A stretch of DNA of 64,000 nucleotides from a virus. The position numbers were made by a program, and so were the translations under genes. How positions within the stretch are numbered: the first letter of the stretch is position 1; the number at the start of each line of letters is the position of its first letter. The notes under the pieces are model-generated. The model had not been told where the DNA came from. It worked only from the letters and a program-made list of their open reading frames with translations, and did not search any database. Below are positions 1,504-63,921 of this stretch, one piece after another. The stretch spans positions 1 through 64,000 of the IMG/VR virus record IMGVR_UViG_3300005253_000017; one strand, 5' to 3'.

Positions 1504-3654
1504 CTACTCCTCTGTTATTGTCCTCCGGGGCTTGCCCTCCTGGCCCACGCTTTTCCAGCTGCATCGGCAATTCGCTACTACAAAGCCCTTAGCAATGTAA
1601 CTCTCGTCTTCCTCTACCGAAAGATTGTATAGCGTCCTCGCCTTCTTAGGGACATAAGAATCCACAACAACAATCTCAAAGTCGCCAAACTGATAATCTC
1701 CGTCATGGTTCATCAATACCCTCTGAACCTTTGATATACATGCTCCAATGTCAGCCTCAATCTCGCTCCCAGTAAAGTGCAGAACCGTCCAGCCATGAGA
1801 TTCCAGTCTATCATCCCGTCGCTTTTCTTTGTCTTTATCTTGATGCCAATAAGCCCCGTCGCACTCAATAGCTATCATACGATCTACAATCGCATAGTCA
1901 ATCCAAAGACTATCAACCGGATGGTTATACTCGGCATCTATCGAAGCGTCGAGAAGGGCCTGGCCCATAACTTCCTCAATGTAAGTCTTTTCCCCGACTT
2001 TCTCTCTACTCTTCCTTGCCAAAATAGCATTGGGATGCTTCTCTGGATGCTTACGATAGTATTCTCGTTTGTCCCTAGAATTTGCCTCCCAATATTCGGC
2101 CGAATGTTTGGATTTATGTCTTGGATTCTTCTTGCCGAGCTTCCCTAGCCTTATCTTCTCTCTTATCTCAGGTCGCTTCGCAGGATTGTTTTCGCCGCTT
2201 TGCTCCGGACGAGGGCCTTGAAGGTGCCATGTGCCATCGGCAATACTTCTGCGCATCTTTTCATTGGCCTTCTTAGTCGTGGCAAACCTATCAATGGCAC
2301 CCGACTCATATTTGTTCAACATCATCTTAGTATGAGCTTTTCCAAAACACGACTTTCCACAAAACTTATTCTTTCCTAAAGGAAATAACCGACCACACTC
2401 CGAGCAAGGTTTTGCCATTGCTCTCACCCGATCTCCAACACAAATGTCCTTAGCATATTTCCACTTACCATTGACAATCATGGGATGATCTGCCGTTATC
2501 AAAATATTGTCCCATTTAACAGGCTTTTTTATCTTGACAGAGATAATCATAGGTTTCTGTTTTGGTGTTCGGTGTAGGTGAAGAACCTTCCGAAATCGAC
2601 CCTTGTGTGTTAATACCAAATCCCCAACAGCAACTTCACCTATCTTCTTCCATCCATCAGCAGTATAAACTGGTACATTATATGAAAGGAGACAATTTAC
2701 GTGGACGGGTATGATTCCCGCACCCTCGCCCCTACGGTACATATTCCCGTCCAAGTCCGCGCACTCCAGGCAGGCATCCCCCGAAGCCTCAAACTGTATC
2801 CAGTCTATCTCGGCAACCTTGTATGACTCCAACGTTCCCTCACTCATCGCCCTAGCAGTCTCAGTCCTTGCGATCATCTCGCCGCGGTATCGCAATTTCT
2901 TTCGCCCCTCCCGGCGAACCATGCGGTCTATGCGGGCCGCTCGCTTATCCGTCAAACCACCCCGCATCTGGGAGAACCTATCGGTCAGCTTGTTATGGTA
3001 TTTGTCCAACGCCCCCCTCTGAACATGGTTTAGCATAAAGTCCCGACGCTGCCGCAGTTCCCGGCCGATGGTGGGCATGGCCTTGCCCTCTGCGATACCT
3101 CGGGAGATAGTATCCCTAAGAGCAGCCTGGAAACTATTCGTCAATTCTGTCACCCGCTTGAACGTGTAATTACTAGCCCACTCCACCGCATGCCGATTGA
3201 CGACATTCCAGGTCGTCGATACTCGGGCAATCTGTCCCCCCACCTTCATGGCCTGCCCATATATCCGCATGTGGTGCTGGCCTATTCTTCTGTCTCCTGC
3301 CATTCGGATACAATTCCAATCAGCAACAGTAGCAACGACACCAGTAAAAGGAGCAGCCTTGTCAATTTCAATTCCCTTCTGTAAGTGGTCGGCGTATTCT
3401 CTTATTCTCAGTTCCGCCTGTCTCTTTTGCAACGGCGTCTTTGGAACCCATTCGTCATACTCCTGTATACTCTCCTTTATGGGCTCTTCACCCCTAATCA
3501 TCTGGTGCTCGATACCATAGAGGATGGCCCGTTCCGCCATACCCATCCAGGAGCGGACGGAGCGGTACATGGGGATAATGTTGCGGCGGTATATCCTAAC
3601 GAACCTCTTGTGGGTTCTGGAGGTTCCGAGCTTAGTTACCGTATGTTGATGCAT
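1504..3654 (-). CDS. MuF-type phage head morphogenesis protein interrupted by an intein
   Basis: This 716-residue reading frame encodes a head morphogenesis (SPP1 gp7/MuF) protein of about 341 residues plus an in-frame intein (residues 321-695). The extein has the long helical N terminus, ARTETARAMSEGT and CLECADLDGNMY of the family. The diagnostic H-x-x-CRCSW end is split by the intein as PVHVN then CRCSW. MuF proteins sit at the portal inside the head and can be ejected with the DNA. It lies downstream of portal, protease and ADP-ribosyltransferase genes in one leftward unit, and its start overlaps the upstream gene by 23 nt. The RBS at 3654 is weak. Confidence 0.9.
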   Translation of the reverse strand: MHQHTVTKLGTSRTHKRFVRIYRRNIIPMYRSVRSWMGMAERAILYGIEHQMIRGEEPIKESIQEYDEWVPKTPLQKRQAELRIREYADHLQKGIEIDKAAPFTGVVATVADWNCIRMAGDRRIGQHHMRIYGQAMKVGGQIARVSTTWNVVNRHAVEWASNYTFKRVTELTNSFQAALRDTISRGIAEGKAMPTIGRELRQRRDFMLNHVQRGALDKYHNKLTDRFSQMRGGLTDKRAARIDRMVRREGRKKLRYRGEMIARTETARAMSEGTLESYKVAEIDWIQFEASGDACLECADLDGNMYRRGEGAGIIPVHVNCLLSYNVPVYTADGWKKIGEVAVGDLVLTHKGRFRKVLHLHRTPKQKPMIISVKIKKPVKWDNILITADHPMIVNGKWKYAKDICVGDRVRAMAKPCSECGRLFPLGKNKFCGKSCFGKAHTKMMLNKYESGAIDRFATTKKANEKMRRSIADGTWHLQGPRPEQSGENNPAKRPEIREKIRLGKLGKKNPRHKSKHSAEYWEANSRDKREYYRKHPEKHPNAILARKSREKVGEKTYIEEVMGQALLDASIDAEYNHPVDSLWIDYAIVDRMIAIECDGAYWHQDKDKEKRRDDRLESHGWTVLHFTGSEIEADIGACISKVQRVLMNHDGDYQFGDFEIVVVDSYVPKKARTLYNLSVEEDESYIAKGFVVANCRCSWKSVGQEGKPRRTITEE
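1570..2694 (-). other. Intein with Vsr/DUF559-like homing endonuclease inside the MuF gene
   Basis: Residues 321-695 of the host frame (375 aa) form a canonical intein. Block A starts at Cys (CLLSYNVPVYTADGW), block B is ITADHPMIV with the TxxH motif, and blocks F/G are YNLSVEEDESYIA ending FVVAN, before Cys+1 of the extein. The penultimate residue is Ala instead of the usual His. Between the splicing halves lie a zinc ribbon (CSECG...FCGKSC) and a PD-(D/E)xK/Vsr-like nuclease region (IDYAIVDRMIAIECD, GAYWH, then HGWTVLHFTGSEI). Insertion is exactly before the first Cys of the conserved CRC motif. Splicing is expected but not shown. Confidence 0.9.
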
Positions 3655-24156: not shown

Positions 24157-24930
24157 TTAGCCAAACATCCCCTTGAGGGCCGCCGGTATACCGACCTTCC
24201 ATGTCCTCTCGGAACCCAGCCAACTGGGTGGAACGGCCCCCTTGAGCCCCCCATGGGCGTCCTCCACCACGTCGAGCAGCAGGGTTATCAACTGCCCCCT
24301 TGGTAGGGGCTTATCTTCCCGACCCTTCAGCCACTCCCCGGCCACCATGAAACTCTCGTAGTCCTGTCCAGGATTCTTCAGCCCGAACGCCTTACGCCCC
24401 AAGAACTTCTTGGCATAGGCGTTGGCTATCGCCAGGGTCAGGCCGGGGTCCTTATCGGGGAGCTTTTTCTTGCCATCCTTCGTCCACCAAAGCCCCACCC
24501 GTTTTGCATGGCAGTCGGTGACTTTCCGCAGGAATCCGCCGAGATGGGAATAGCCGTGGTTACGGCCCTCCCAGATATGGCGATCTTGGCGGCAGGCCTC
24601 GAAATAGCTCCCCATTCGCTCCAGCAGCTTTGACACACCCACCTCCTTGATCGCCTTCTTGAACACGCCGCCATGAGTGTCAACCTCGTCTATCGTAATG
24701 GGATTGTTCCTCGACTCCTGGACGGCCTCGTAACGGATGTACGGATGCTCGTTCCAGGCGTTGACCAGCGTGAGGACATCGGCATCCAGACGGGCCCCGG
24801 TTCCCTCGCCCCTTATAATCTCCGCCCTGCTCGCCTTGGTGGGAAGGATGATGAACGAGACGGGGGCACCGGAAGCAATCGCCTCCCTCTGGCTTTTTGT
24901 CAACTTGATCTTGATTTCGACCATCTTCAC
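24157..24930 (-). CDS. Early leftward protein of unknown function, 257 aa
   Basis: This is the first gene left of the divergence point, with its own TTTACA-15-TATAAT promoter. The N terminus (about 1-70) carries KLTKSQREAIASG and strand-rich sequence. The middle holds YFEACRQDRHIWEGRNHGYSHLGGFLRKV. The C-terminal part is glycine- and lysine-rich. The middle segment faintly recalls DnaD-like replication-initiation domains, but I would not assign it. A DNA-binding early regulator or replication protein is possible. Confidence 0.65.
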   Translation of the reverse strand: MKMVEIKIKLTKSQREAIASGAPVSFIILPTKASRAEIIRGEGTGARLDADVLTLVNAWNEHPYIRYEAVQESRNNPITIDEVDTHGGVFKKAIKEVGVSKLLERMGSYFEACRQDRHIWEGRNHGYSHLGGFLRKVTDCHAKRVGLWWTKDGKKKLPDKDPGLTLAIANAYAKKFLGRKAFGLKNPGQDYESFMVAGEWLKGREDKPLPRGQLITLLLDVVEDAHGGLKGAVPPSWLGSERTWKVGIPAALKGMFG

Positions 24931-25312
24931 CTCAGACCATTATACCCTGGGAGGTCAAATGTAAATATTTTTCGGGTGCAAAAGCTAGTATAATAATAGC
25001 TGTTTCTTCTTCTTCTGTTTCTTCTTCTTTATTATACTAGCAAAACACCCCTCCAAATGTTTGCTTTTCTTAGGTTTCGAGTAAATAATTCAACCGAAGA
25101 GCCTTAGCGGAATAGGGACTTATGAAAATGGCATTTCCCGATTTCTCGTCAAACGTTAATATTTGGCCGAATCTTTAGGAAATATTAACACTTTGGATGT
25201 TTGGGACTAGGAGAGGCTGAAAAATTTCTTGAGAAAATCCGTTGAAACGGGAGGCCGAGGGTATAATGGGATGAAGGCAAAAGACACTCGACAACTTGGA
25301 AAGGAGCAAACG
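24931..25312. promoter_or_regulatory. Divergence region with two inverted repeats (origin or switch candidate)
   Basis: No gene is supported in these 382 nt. A perfect 13-bp inverted repeat, GCTAGTATAATAA (24984-24996) and its complement (25029-25041), brackets a polypyrimidine tract of TTC repeats; each arm contains an inward-facing TATAAT. A second perfect 10-bp inverted repeat, GTTAATATTT (25155-25164) and AAATATTAAC (25180-25189), lies 110 nt further on. A rightward GTATAAT is at 25261-25267. Leftward and rightward transcription part here, so an origin, operator or early switch is plausible. Confidence 0.6.
24939..24965 (-). promoter_or_regulatory. Leftward promoter TTTACA-15-TATAAT
   Basis: On the leftward strand TTTACA (24960-24965) and TATAAT (24939-24944) precede the ATG at 24930 by 8 nt after the -10, so this message too would be nearly leaderless, like the terminase transcript. 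Confidence 0.65.
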
Positions 25313-25516
25313 ATGCAAGGCAAAAAGACAGACGCCGGGAAACGCTGTAAGGTGGTAATCATGGATGACGATGATCAGAAAGTCCGCGATGCTATGCTGC
25401 TGGAGAAAGATGTCCGTGACGAATCGTGGTCGATATTTGTCTTTGATTGGAAGTGTGTGAGCTTTGCCTCGTACCCAGAAATTCTCGAAATTGGCGATTT
25501 TGTTGCCCCACGTTGA
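25313..25516 (+). CDS. First rightward gene, hypothetical, 67 aa
   Basis: ATG at 25313 has AAAGGAGC upstream and lies 45 nt after a TATAAT (25262-25267); an in-frame ATG at 25271 lacks a ribosome site. The product is a mix of basic start (KKTDAGKRCK) and acidic core (VVIMDDDDQKVRDAM). As the first early gene it may be a host-takeover factor. Not recognised. Confidence 0.6.
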   Translation: MQGKKTDAGKRCKVVIMDDDDQKVRDAMLLEKDVRDESWSIFVFDWKCVSFASYPEILEIGDFVAPR

Positions 25517-25560
25517 AAACCGACGTGTATAATGGAATAGGTAAGCTAGAAAGGAACACA

Positions 25561-25848: not shown

Positions 25849-26051
25849 CACAGAAGTTGCCGGACAGCTGATTGAAAACCGAATATGAGAGGCGGCGGTA
25901 CAGGGAATGTGCCTGCGGTCATAAATCGGGTGGAAGAACCGCTCAATGCGTACTGGCCGTGAATAAAAGCCAGCCCGAATAAGAATGATTCGTCCTGTCG
26001 GTGAGAACCCGGCCTGTCTCTCAAGTTTTTTGACGACCGAAAGGAAATGAA
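25849..26051 (+). ncRNA. Possible structured RNA or long leader
   Basis: These 203 nt hold no convincing gene but several short perfect hairpins: CAGG/CCTG, CTGGC/GCCAG closing an 11-nt loop, CGAAT/ATTCG, and an outer CCGGACAG near 25861 that can pair (one bulge) with CCTGTCGG near 26003. A T6 run (26024-26029) follows. It could be a small RNA, an attenuator for the next genes or the 5' part of the larger RNA downstream. Confidence 0.35.
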
Positions 26052-26246: not shown

Positions 26247-26360
26247 ATGACCGATGACGAACTTAGAAAAAAGATAAGGAAAGACCCACTTGGGAATGGT
26301 GGGTACGCCACGAGGATTTGTCGAGGCTGTCACAACTACTTGACTGATCCAAGAGGGTAG
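26247..26360 (+). CDS. Small hypothetical protein, 37 aa
   Basis: ATG at 26247 with GAGGAAACGAA upstream; TAG at 26360. The product is basic, then has ATRICRGCHNYLTDP, half of a zinc finger. A perfect 7-bp hairpin starts at the base after its stop codon. It may be a truncated gene whose 3' part was replaced by the RNA locus. Confidence 0.5.
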   Translation: MTDDELRKKIRKDPLGNGGYATRICRGCHNYLTDPRG

Positions 26361-26760
26361 CACCGATACGGCTAAGATTATAGATCGGTGTTCTGCATGC
26401 TTTGATGAGTAAACTCCAAGAATTCGTTTGATATTTGACAACCAAATAGGATATACCTGTCCGCGGTACGAGACAATCGTACGCCGACCCGAAGATACTA
26501 GGGTGAATGCTTCGCAAGGAGCGGTGTATCAATGCCGGATGAAAAGACCGGCCGGACAGGTTTTGATATAAGGCTCGCCTAAAGGCCATGACAACCGCAA
26601 GCCCAGTCCGTACCTGACGACCGATGTGGGCTGGCTCCGGCGATAAATTGTCAGGCTCTATTTCGCTGATTGGCCGATTGTCTTAGCGGGCAGAAAGGCT
26701 CGCCTTTCAATATACTGGATAGGCGGTGCGGGACAGCCGCACAGGCATCGGGGTTACTCG

Positions 26761-26802
26761 TTTGGGAACCACCCATTCCATAGGCTTGGGAACCACTCAT
26801 TC
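26761..26802 (+). repeat. Tandem 24-nt repeat inside the RNA candidate
   Basis: TTTGGGAACCACCCATTC (26761-26778) and CTTGGGAACCACTCATTC (26785-26802) are 16/18 identical and start 24 nt apart. They lie in the least-paired part of the RNA candidate and could be protein-binding or loop-receptor elements. Confidence 0.7.
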
Positions 26803-27189
26803 GATACTGCGCTCTGCTGCGTTACATGCCTGGGAAGGACAGGCCATATCCAGCGATACCCCGGTGGCCAGACAGGTGCAAGGTGTTTGGGATATACCAC
26901 CGGGGACTTGCGGCGGCCCAGGTACGAGCTGGGGCATGTGCACCGTTAACCGTACTACACACGGAAGCTAGGAGGTGCCAATCCTCCCCGCCGCTTTGAG
27001 CTAGCTGGTTAGAGCAGCAGTGGTCACAGCAGAGTGTGACAGGGTAAGGGAATGCATATAATAATCGTAACCCTTGCTGACCGATGGGATATAGACCCAC
27101 TAAGGGAGCCTCGAAACTCTCTGCTGCTTTCGGAATCGCAAGTTCGTATAACCACGAATAACTCAACATCGAAGACAAGGAGAATCGAG

Positions 27190-27276
27190 ATGTCAAGTAG
27201 GCAACATTCCTCAGAAGATTGTTTCCGCGATTCCGGCCCGAAGGGCGTTCCTTCGGGAAATTTTAAAGACAAGTGA
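27190..27276 (+). CDS. Very small hypothetical protein, 28 aa
   Basis: ATG at 27190 follows ACAAGGAGAATCGAG, a strong ribosome site; TGA is at 27276. The frame runs through the terminator-like hairpin at 27237-27257. It may be a leader peptide or a small toxin-like product; equally it may be chance. Confidence 0.35.
   Translation: MSSRQHSSEDCFRDSGPKGVPSGNFKDK
27237..27264 (+). terminator. Terminator-like hairpin at the end of the RNA region
   Basis: CCCGAAGG-GCGTT-CCTTCGGG is a perfect 8-bp stem with a 5-nt loop, followed by AAATTTT. It lies 21 nt before the TATAAT (27286-27291) that precedes the next gene set. Confidence 0.6.
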
Positions 27277-27284
27277 TTCAGAGT

Positions 27285-27291
27285 GTATAAT
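27285..27291 (+). promoter_or_regulatory. GTATAAT element before the HARE-HTH gene
   Basis: GTATAAT is followed by AGAGTAGGAGAATGAG and the ATG at 27308, the same layout as at 28599 and 22403. No good -35 box is present. With the terminator just upstream it probably starts the replication operon. Confidence 0.55.
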
Positions 27292-27307: not shown

Positions 27308-27856
27308 ATGACAGACGATGAGAGAACGGCGTACATTGAGGCGTGCCCGGCGTTCGGGCTGGACGAGAAAGGTGAATCGGCATTCGATATGAGCACTGAG
27401 GAATGTCAGCTATGCGAACAGCAGGACCGAAACACGCACAATGCCTGTTGGGAAGAGTGGAAGCAGGCCAACCCGCCTCAGGCTCAAGAGGTAGGAGAAC
27501 CGCAGGTAAAAATGACTGTTGAAGATAATGGGGCCGAGATTCCCGAGGCCCCCAAACCTGAGAAGGAGAAGCAAGAAATGGCAGAGACAGAGAAAAAGAC
27601 GAAGGTGGTGAAGGAAACAAAGGAAAAGAAGATGTCTCAACTTGATGCCGCTGTGGTTATTCTTGGCGAAGCTGATGGACCTCTCAACTGCAAAGAGATG
27701 GTCAGCAGGATGGCTGAGAAGGGACTGTGGAGCAGTCCAAAGGGCAAGACACCAGCAGCAACTGTTAATGCTGCCATCATTCGTGAAATCAATAAGAAGG
27801 GCGATGAGTCTCGCTTTCGCAAAGTATCAAGAGGCATGTTCTCTCTGAATGGTTGA
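27308..27856 (+). CDS. HARE-HTH domain protein
   Basis: The 182-residue protein has an N-terminal Cys motif (EECQLCEQQDRNTHNAC), an acidic-then-lysine linker (about 65-108) and a C-terminal HARE-HTH winged helix: LDAAVVILGEADGPLNCKEM, MAEKGLW, TPAATVNAAIIREI, and the wing RFRKVSRGMFSL. HARE-HTH domains occur in the RNA polymerase delta subunit, restriction enzymes and chromatin proteins, and are thought to sense modified DNA or bind RNA polymerase. It overlaps the DNA methyltransferase gene, which suggests a modification-linked role. Confidence 0.85.
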   Translation: MTDDERTAYIEACPAFGLDEKGESAFDMSTEECQLCEQQDRNTHNACWEEWKQANPPQAQEVGEPQVKMTVEDNGAEIPEAPKPEKEKQEMAETEKKTKVVKETKEKKMSQLDAAVVILGEADGPLNCKEMVSRMAEKGLWSSPKGKTPAATVNAAIIREINKKGDESRFRKVSRGMFSLNG

Positions 27857-63893: not shown

Positions 63894-63921
63894 TTTACTT
63901 TTGGCCGATGTAACGTATAAT
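63894..63921 (+). promoter_or_regulatory. Rightward promoter TTTACT-16-TATAAT
   Basis: TTTACT (63894-63899) and TATAAT (63916-63921), 16 nt apart, identical to the leftward copy at 24068-24095. It drives the partial gene starting at 63968 and whatever follows outside the window. Confidence 0.8.

Follow-up and report, generated by a model that had tools for sequence, protein, structure and literature searches.

Genomic setting of the locus

The locus lies in a 103,840-bp (103.8-kb) IMG/VR virus record, the first 64 kb of which are the stretch of DNA analysed here (the window). The record belongs to a phage of bacteria known from environmental DNA alone. This phage is an orphan: among 50,697 phage records, the listed best relatives of its polymerase and terminase are ~22-28% identical. 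Genes are directed leftward until ~24.9 kb and rightward from ~25.3 kb, and the GC skew switches at this change of direction, ~1 kb upstream of the candidate RNA region. The rightward block opens with small ORFs at 25313, 25561, 26052 and 26247. The candidate RNA region comes next, followed by genes for a HARE-HTH protein (27308-27856, + strand; Pfam PF05066, E 2.8e-13), a DNA methyltransferase, a sliding clamp and a family A DNA polymerase. The last of the small ORFs (26247-26360, + strand) encodes 37 aa with a CxxC motif and has a codon score of 0.12 (scored in the frame of 26248-26361); its last base adjoins the start of the RNA.

According to a crude gene call, the candidate RNA region is the longest gap in the whole genome, and 26361-27190 (to ~27264) is the sole large noncoding gap in these 103.8 kb of tightly packed genes. 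A second large gap of 1.3 kb at 67.7-69.0 kb was an artefact of the crude caller, which had missed a 354-aa ORF. Earlier in the rightward block, another noncoding gap, of 203 nt (window 25849-26051), has no folding excess (z -0.5). At the left of the window, 1504-3654 on the - strand encodes a 716-aa protein resembling MuF-type head proteins, with a putative intein interruption recognized by eye from the translation.

ORFs between 26361 and 27307 have codon log-odds of ~0 or below, compared with 0.1-0.5 in most real genes. None of the ORFs tested from the RNA region scored above a curated Pfam cut-off, and tblastn of three of them against phages gave no match. Hence, the view of the earlier note that the interval holds no credible protein gene is upheld.

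Fold strength and predicted architecture

On the + strand, 26361-27264 has a minimum free energy of -330.1 kcal/mol with a z-score of -3.4; when 100 shuffles were used the z-score was -4.0 and none of them folded as well. In a same-size comparison, 35 gene windows ranged from -2.0 (best) to +1.3 against -3.4 for the RNA region, which is thus the strongest fold among the windows tested at its size. Perfect Watson-Crick stems spanning <=130 nt were counted and compared with shuffles. Those of at least 7 bp number 10 (4.4+/-2.0 in shuffles), those of at least 8 bp number 6 (1.1+/-0.9, a roughly six-fold excess) and those of at least 9 bp number 3 (0.3+/-0.6). The helices listed in the earlier note are all present where it had placed them, and the number of stems exceeds shuffle expectation. 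They cannot all coexist, however, since CCTGGG/CCCAGG competes with a likelier hairpin, CCCAG/CTGGG at 26917-26933.

The architecture was predicted from a single sequence with pair probabilities, so that the fold rests on statistics. A 5' hairpin (D0, 26361-26390, CACCGAT/ATCGGTG) with a pair probability of 0.92 begins right behind the upstream ORF's stop codon. The main body is closed by the long-range helix P1 (26393-26410/27004-27020, mean pair probability 0.98), which encloses D1 to D5, while D6, D7 and D8 come 3' of it. In D1 (26455-26561; z -3.9, 1 of 400 shuffles as good) a perfect 9-bp helix, ACCTGTCCG/CGGACAGGT at 26455-26463/26553-26561, closes a junction of three hairpins, with GTACGA/TCGTAC inside the D1 helix. 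D2 (26584-26657) is an arm in which GCC-TGACAA/TTGTCA-GGC surrounds AGCCCA/TGGGCT; its pair probability is ~0.8-0.9, and taken alone it is not significant (z -1.6). D3 is a 194-nt branched arm (26663-26856) in which the 21-nt unit TTGGGAACCACYCATTCSATA is duplicated in tandem (26762-26782 and 26786-26806). D4 (26859-26905; pair probability 1.0, z -3.4) combines a 9-bp helix, CCCCGGTGG/CCACCGGGG at 26859-26867/26897-26905, with a 7-bp helix and a GATATA bulge. Its loop GGTGCA (26875-26880) is complementary to TGCACC (26939-26944) between the arms of D5, with which it may form a putative pseudoknot.

D5 (26910-26994) is a cloverleaf-shaped domain with a GCGGCGG/CCGCCGC stem and a GGAGG-TGCCAAT-CCTCC arm. 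Alone it is not significantly stable (z -1.2). The ten best hits of a covariance model of D4-D5 in the control, a tRNA-rich Streptomyces phage, were all tRNA genes, and the model scored a tRNA of a related phage no better than the best control tRNA (19.9 versus 19.2 bits). Therefore, the geometry of D5 is tRNA-like in overall shape only. D5 matched neither the Rfam tRNA model nor ARAGORN at default threshold, and a true tRNA was rejected, since the D4-D5 model picks tRNAs generally and the tRNA model rejects D5.

Beyond P1, D6 (27027-27126; z -2.7 on the + strand) is an arm with CAGCAGAG/CTCTGCTG. In D7 (27130-27236; z -3.9 on the + and -4.6 on the - strand) the helix CGGAATCGC/GCGATTCCG surrounds the ribosome-binding site and start of a small ORF. 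D8 (27237-27257; z -3.4) is the terminator-like hairpin CCCGAAGG-GCGTT-CCTTCGGG.

Strand bias of the fold

On the - strand, too, the region as a whole folds well (z -2.8), which would suit DNA palindromes. For 26361-27190 alone, however, the z-score is -3.0 on the + strand (0 of 60 shuffles as good) and -1.1 on the - strand (9 of 60). The body enclosed by P1 (-3.1 versus -1.3) and D3 (-3.5 versus -0.9) behave likewise. By contrast, 27130-27257, comprising D7 and D8, is a palindromic stretch that folds strongly whichever strand is taken, and as 27130-27236 is equally strong on either it counts less as evidence for RNA. Since the signal is confined to the + strand up to the small ORF at 27191, it resembles that of an RNA rather than that of DNA palindromes. 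The structured entity is thus most likely a + strand RNA with a core from 26361 to ~27190 that has no coding bias. The structured noncoding locus noticed before is borne out, and the strand test strengthens it.

3' end and transcription signals

Although the terminal hairpin D8 is real, its proposed role as a terminator is weak. It is followed only by AAATTTT, which is no proper U-tract, it was not called a terminator, and a terminator scan found no canonical terminator at the RNA region. D8 moreover lies inside a possible 28-codon ORF (27191-27276, + strand) with an AAGGAG ribosome-binding site, a good Shine-Dalgarno sequence. This ORF overlaps D7, has a codon score of 0.07 and matches no family above cut-off; it sets a bound to the 3' end of the RNA.

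Copies of the motif GTATAATRG recur a short way upstream of genes, and those nearest upstream of the RNA are at 25262 and 25528; the nearest promoter-like motif is GTGTATAATGG (25528-25533, + strand). Neither motif recurrence nor a promoter scan gave a clear promoter directly upstream of the RNA. Downstream, both point to a promoter-like motif of the next gene, GTGTATAATAG (27286-27291, + strand), 22 nt upstream of the HTH gene. This layout (25528, then 27286) argues that the RNA is the 3' part of the upstream operon and not the leader of the downstream one. A promoter-like module, TTTACTTTT..GTATAATGATAGTAGAGTGAAAATCGAATA, occurs in three nearly identical copies: at window 24073 (-), at 63916 (+) and at 92174 of the same genome (+; L004 8174). 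At 92481-92576 (+; L004 8481-8576) of this genome lies a match to the Rfam type II hammerhead ribozyme (41 bits, gathering score 37).

Comparison with known RNA families

The covariance models of Rfam 15 gave no hit at gathering scores in the whole window. At E<=10 only one irrelevant sub-threshold hit was obtained in 25.8-27.4 kb. When D5 was considered as a tRNA, the best sub-threshold Rfam match was a Tymovirus tRNA-like model (E 1.7), which was dismissed as chance level. The models of group I and II introns, RNase P RNA, tmRNA and other Rfam families were likewise unmatched in the RNA region. Consequently, GOLLD, ROOL, introns, RNase P, tmRNA and tRNA are excluded as recognizable members. 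In the search that the earlier note had proposed, neither GOLLD nor ROOL matches, even at E<=10. ARAGORN found no tRNA or tmRNA in the window, and the nearest tRNAs of the genome are at ~101-102 kb, ~75 kb from the RNA. The suggested likeness to the setting of GOLLD and ROOL is therefore imperfect, as it does not extend to proximity to tRNA genes.

As GOLLD and ROOL illustrate, phages produce enigmatic RNA particles as large as ribosomes. Both RNAs assemble into RNA-only nanocages; the GOLLD linker can hold tRNAs, and ROOL is usually found close to tRNA islands (PMC12286853). The present RNA resembles GOLLD in its ~0.8 kb, its phage setting and its many nested helices, and the tRNA-like shape of D5 recalls the tRNAs that GOLLD can carry; unlike GOLLD, it has no Rfam match and no nearby tRNA gene. 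With ROOL it has in common that it is large, branched and phage-borne, but it fails the ROOL model and has no tRNA genes near it, whereas ROOL usually accompanies tRNA islands. Large ncRNAs that are abundant, supported by RNA-seq and of unknown role were described for gp139-gp140 of ICP1 (PMC7567579) and as lnc001/lnc002 of phage K (PMC9241854). Like these stretches of lytic phages, the present locus lacks ORFs over ~0.8-1 kb and falls outside known families. Whereas those RNAs rest on RNA-seq, ours is known from sequence, and it has no DNA similarity to any phage record searched.

Search for relatives

A blastn search of the region against 50,697 phages and 72,556 plasmids returned nothing beyond 30-nt chance matches. 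Three loop or repeat motifs scanned through IMG/VR gave chance coincidences only, none with matching stems or flanks, and one motif scanned through GTDB contigs gave none. Polymerase, terminase and clamp peptides retrieved no close kin, and a helicase alignment against GTDB contigs none either. The replicative helicase as query led to an 87.2-kb relative, G001 (helicase 60%, polymerase 54% identical), and to a more distant one, G002.

The genes around the locus keep their order in G001: those at 24157, 27308, 28623 and 29672 have homologues at L126 2979, 4877, 7266 and 10738. At the matching place the RNA is missing; two protein genes stand there instead, one a putative radical-SAM protein of QueE type (by eye), and only 37 nt precede the HTH gene. 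When G001 and the nearly complete G002 sequence were searched with models of D1 and D4-D5, no homologue of the RNA appeared, and the only notable hit was a tRNA. Given its lack at the syntenic place, the RNA would be either an accessory of this lineage or diverged beyond recognition, in collections that may lack the records closest to this genome.

Another part of G001, the ORF-poor gap L131 7780-8295 (- strand), folds strongly (z -4.8), has no Rfam match of its own and is a candidate second large phage RNA. It contains a perfect long-range helix, ATTGCTTCCCTG/CAGGGAAGCAAT, and immediately precedes two tRNAs, one whose anticodon arm is abnormal and a tRNA-Lys. Like the present RNA it is ORF-poor, folds strongly and has one domain closed by a CCTGTC/GACAGG helix, but it differs in genomic place and in standing beside two tRNA genes. 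At the corresponding place our phage carries an HNH-endonuclease-like gene, a tRNA-like sequence and a tRNA-Phe. Homology between the two regions was considered and set aside, as neither local alignment nor reciprocal models were convincing. Local alignment against shuffles gave p ~0.08. Covariance model R1 scored 15.5 bits in the gap, but its score on the opposite strand was almost as high (13.7). In the reverse test, model R3 did not return D1 on the + strand; homology is therefore unproven.

Further structured elements were noted in these relatives. G001 carries eight tandem hairpins ~60 nt apart at L129 4680-5190 (~18.68-19.19 kb; z ~-5), whose stems differ yet are self-complementary, with TGTCACCC conserved in each loop. 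At L135 17100-17470 in G002 and at L117 3391-3537, a tRNA-Leu(UAA) is predicted whose anticodon loop carries a 54-nt insertion; other interrupted tRNA-like pieces, which have GAGCCGAA in common, flank it.

Interpretation

The computations show a noncoding locus with a significant multidomain fold and a + strand bias that belongs to no known family, has no homologue in the collections searched and is absent from the matching place of G001. It agrees with large structured phage ncRNAs as a kind in lying within 0.5-1 kb, being noncoding and being significantly structured, and it is a candidate for a large structured phage RNA outside GOLLD and ROOL. We regard it as somewhat probable that the phage encodes a + strand structured ncRNA of ~0.8 kb, the 3' part of an early operon, that serves as a trans-acting scaffold and is a lineage-specific accessory. 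This reading draws on the significance of the fold, the excess of stems, the strand bias of the core, and the lack of coding signal and of an Rfam family. It further draws on the promoter-like motif between the RNA and the next gene, the absence from the syntenic place of G001, and the precedents of the large ncRNAs of ICP1 and phage K and of RNA nanocages. The RNA would share the transcript of the early operon, which has its nearest promoter-like motif at ~25.5 kb, and would end before the new motif at 27286. Presumably it is released from the operon transcript by cleavage or by termination. It could then, as the analogy with GOLLD and ROOL suggests, act in trans as a scaffold with a partner or as a multimer, and it may be a lineage-specific accessory rather than a core part of replication.

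The main rival is a role in cis: as a long leader or intergenic regulator, the structure could control either the small ORF at 27191 or the HTH/methyltransferase/replication operon downstream, by attenuation, sequestration of the ribosome-binding site or RNase processing. The region does lie directly upstream of the co-directional replication operon, and the small ORF starts within D7. We nevertheless consider such a role unlikely: a promoter-like motif separates the RNA from the next gene, ~0.8 kb with many domains far exceeds known leaders, matches to riboswitch or leader families are lacking, and the related phage manages with just 37 nt before the same gene.

Less plausible still is decaying or non-functional DNA, for instance a relic of a tRNA or other RNA, that folds by compositional accident. 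The missing conservation, the tandem 21-nt duplication in D3, the cloverleaf shape of D5 and a tRNA D-arm-like AGCTGGTTAGAGC near 27003-27015 would fit it, but none of 100 shuffles folds as well, there is no remnant of a known protein or RNA family, and this is the sole ORF-less gap of its size in a tightly packed genome. That palindromes of a DNA-level element, such as a replication origin or packaging signal, merely resemble RNA structure is very improbable. The GC skew switch ~1 kb upstream and the equal folding of D7 and D8 on both strands are in its favour, but the core is significant only as + strand RNA, and neither iterons nor an AT-rich unwinding element were seen in the sequence.

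The proposal of a large structured ncRNA in the early region outside GOLLD and ROOL thus stands, while its designation as a new class is not established: blastn, loop motifs and covariance models found no homologue of this one sequence, and hence there is no covariation. An undescribed class of large ornate phage RNA, with a branched body, a long-range closing helix and an internal cloverleaf, assembling, independently of GOLLD and ROOL, into a scaffold or cage made of RNA only, is conceivable, yet we hold it to be doubtful. If correct, the present RNA would be a third unrelated RNA of GOLLD/ROOL size and, together with the strongly folding gap in the closest relative, would point to a repeated origin of such RNAs. 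It would also suggest that they are undercounted, because Rfam families need many homologues. The phage would then offer a fresh system for asking what large phage RNAs do.
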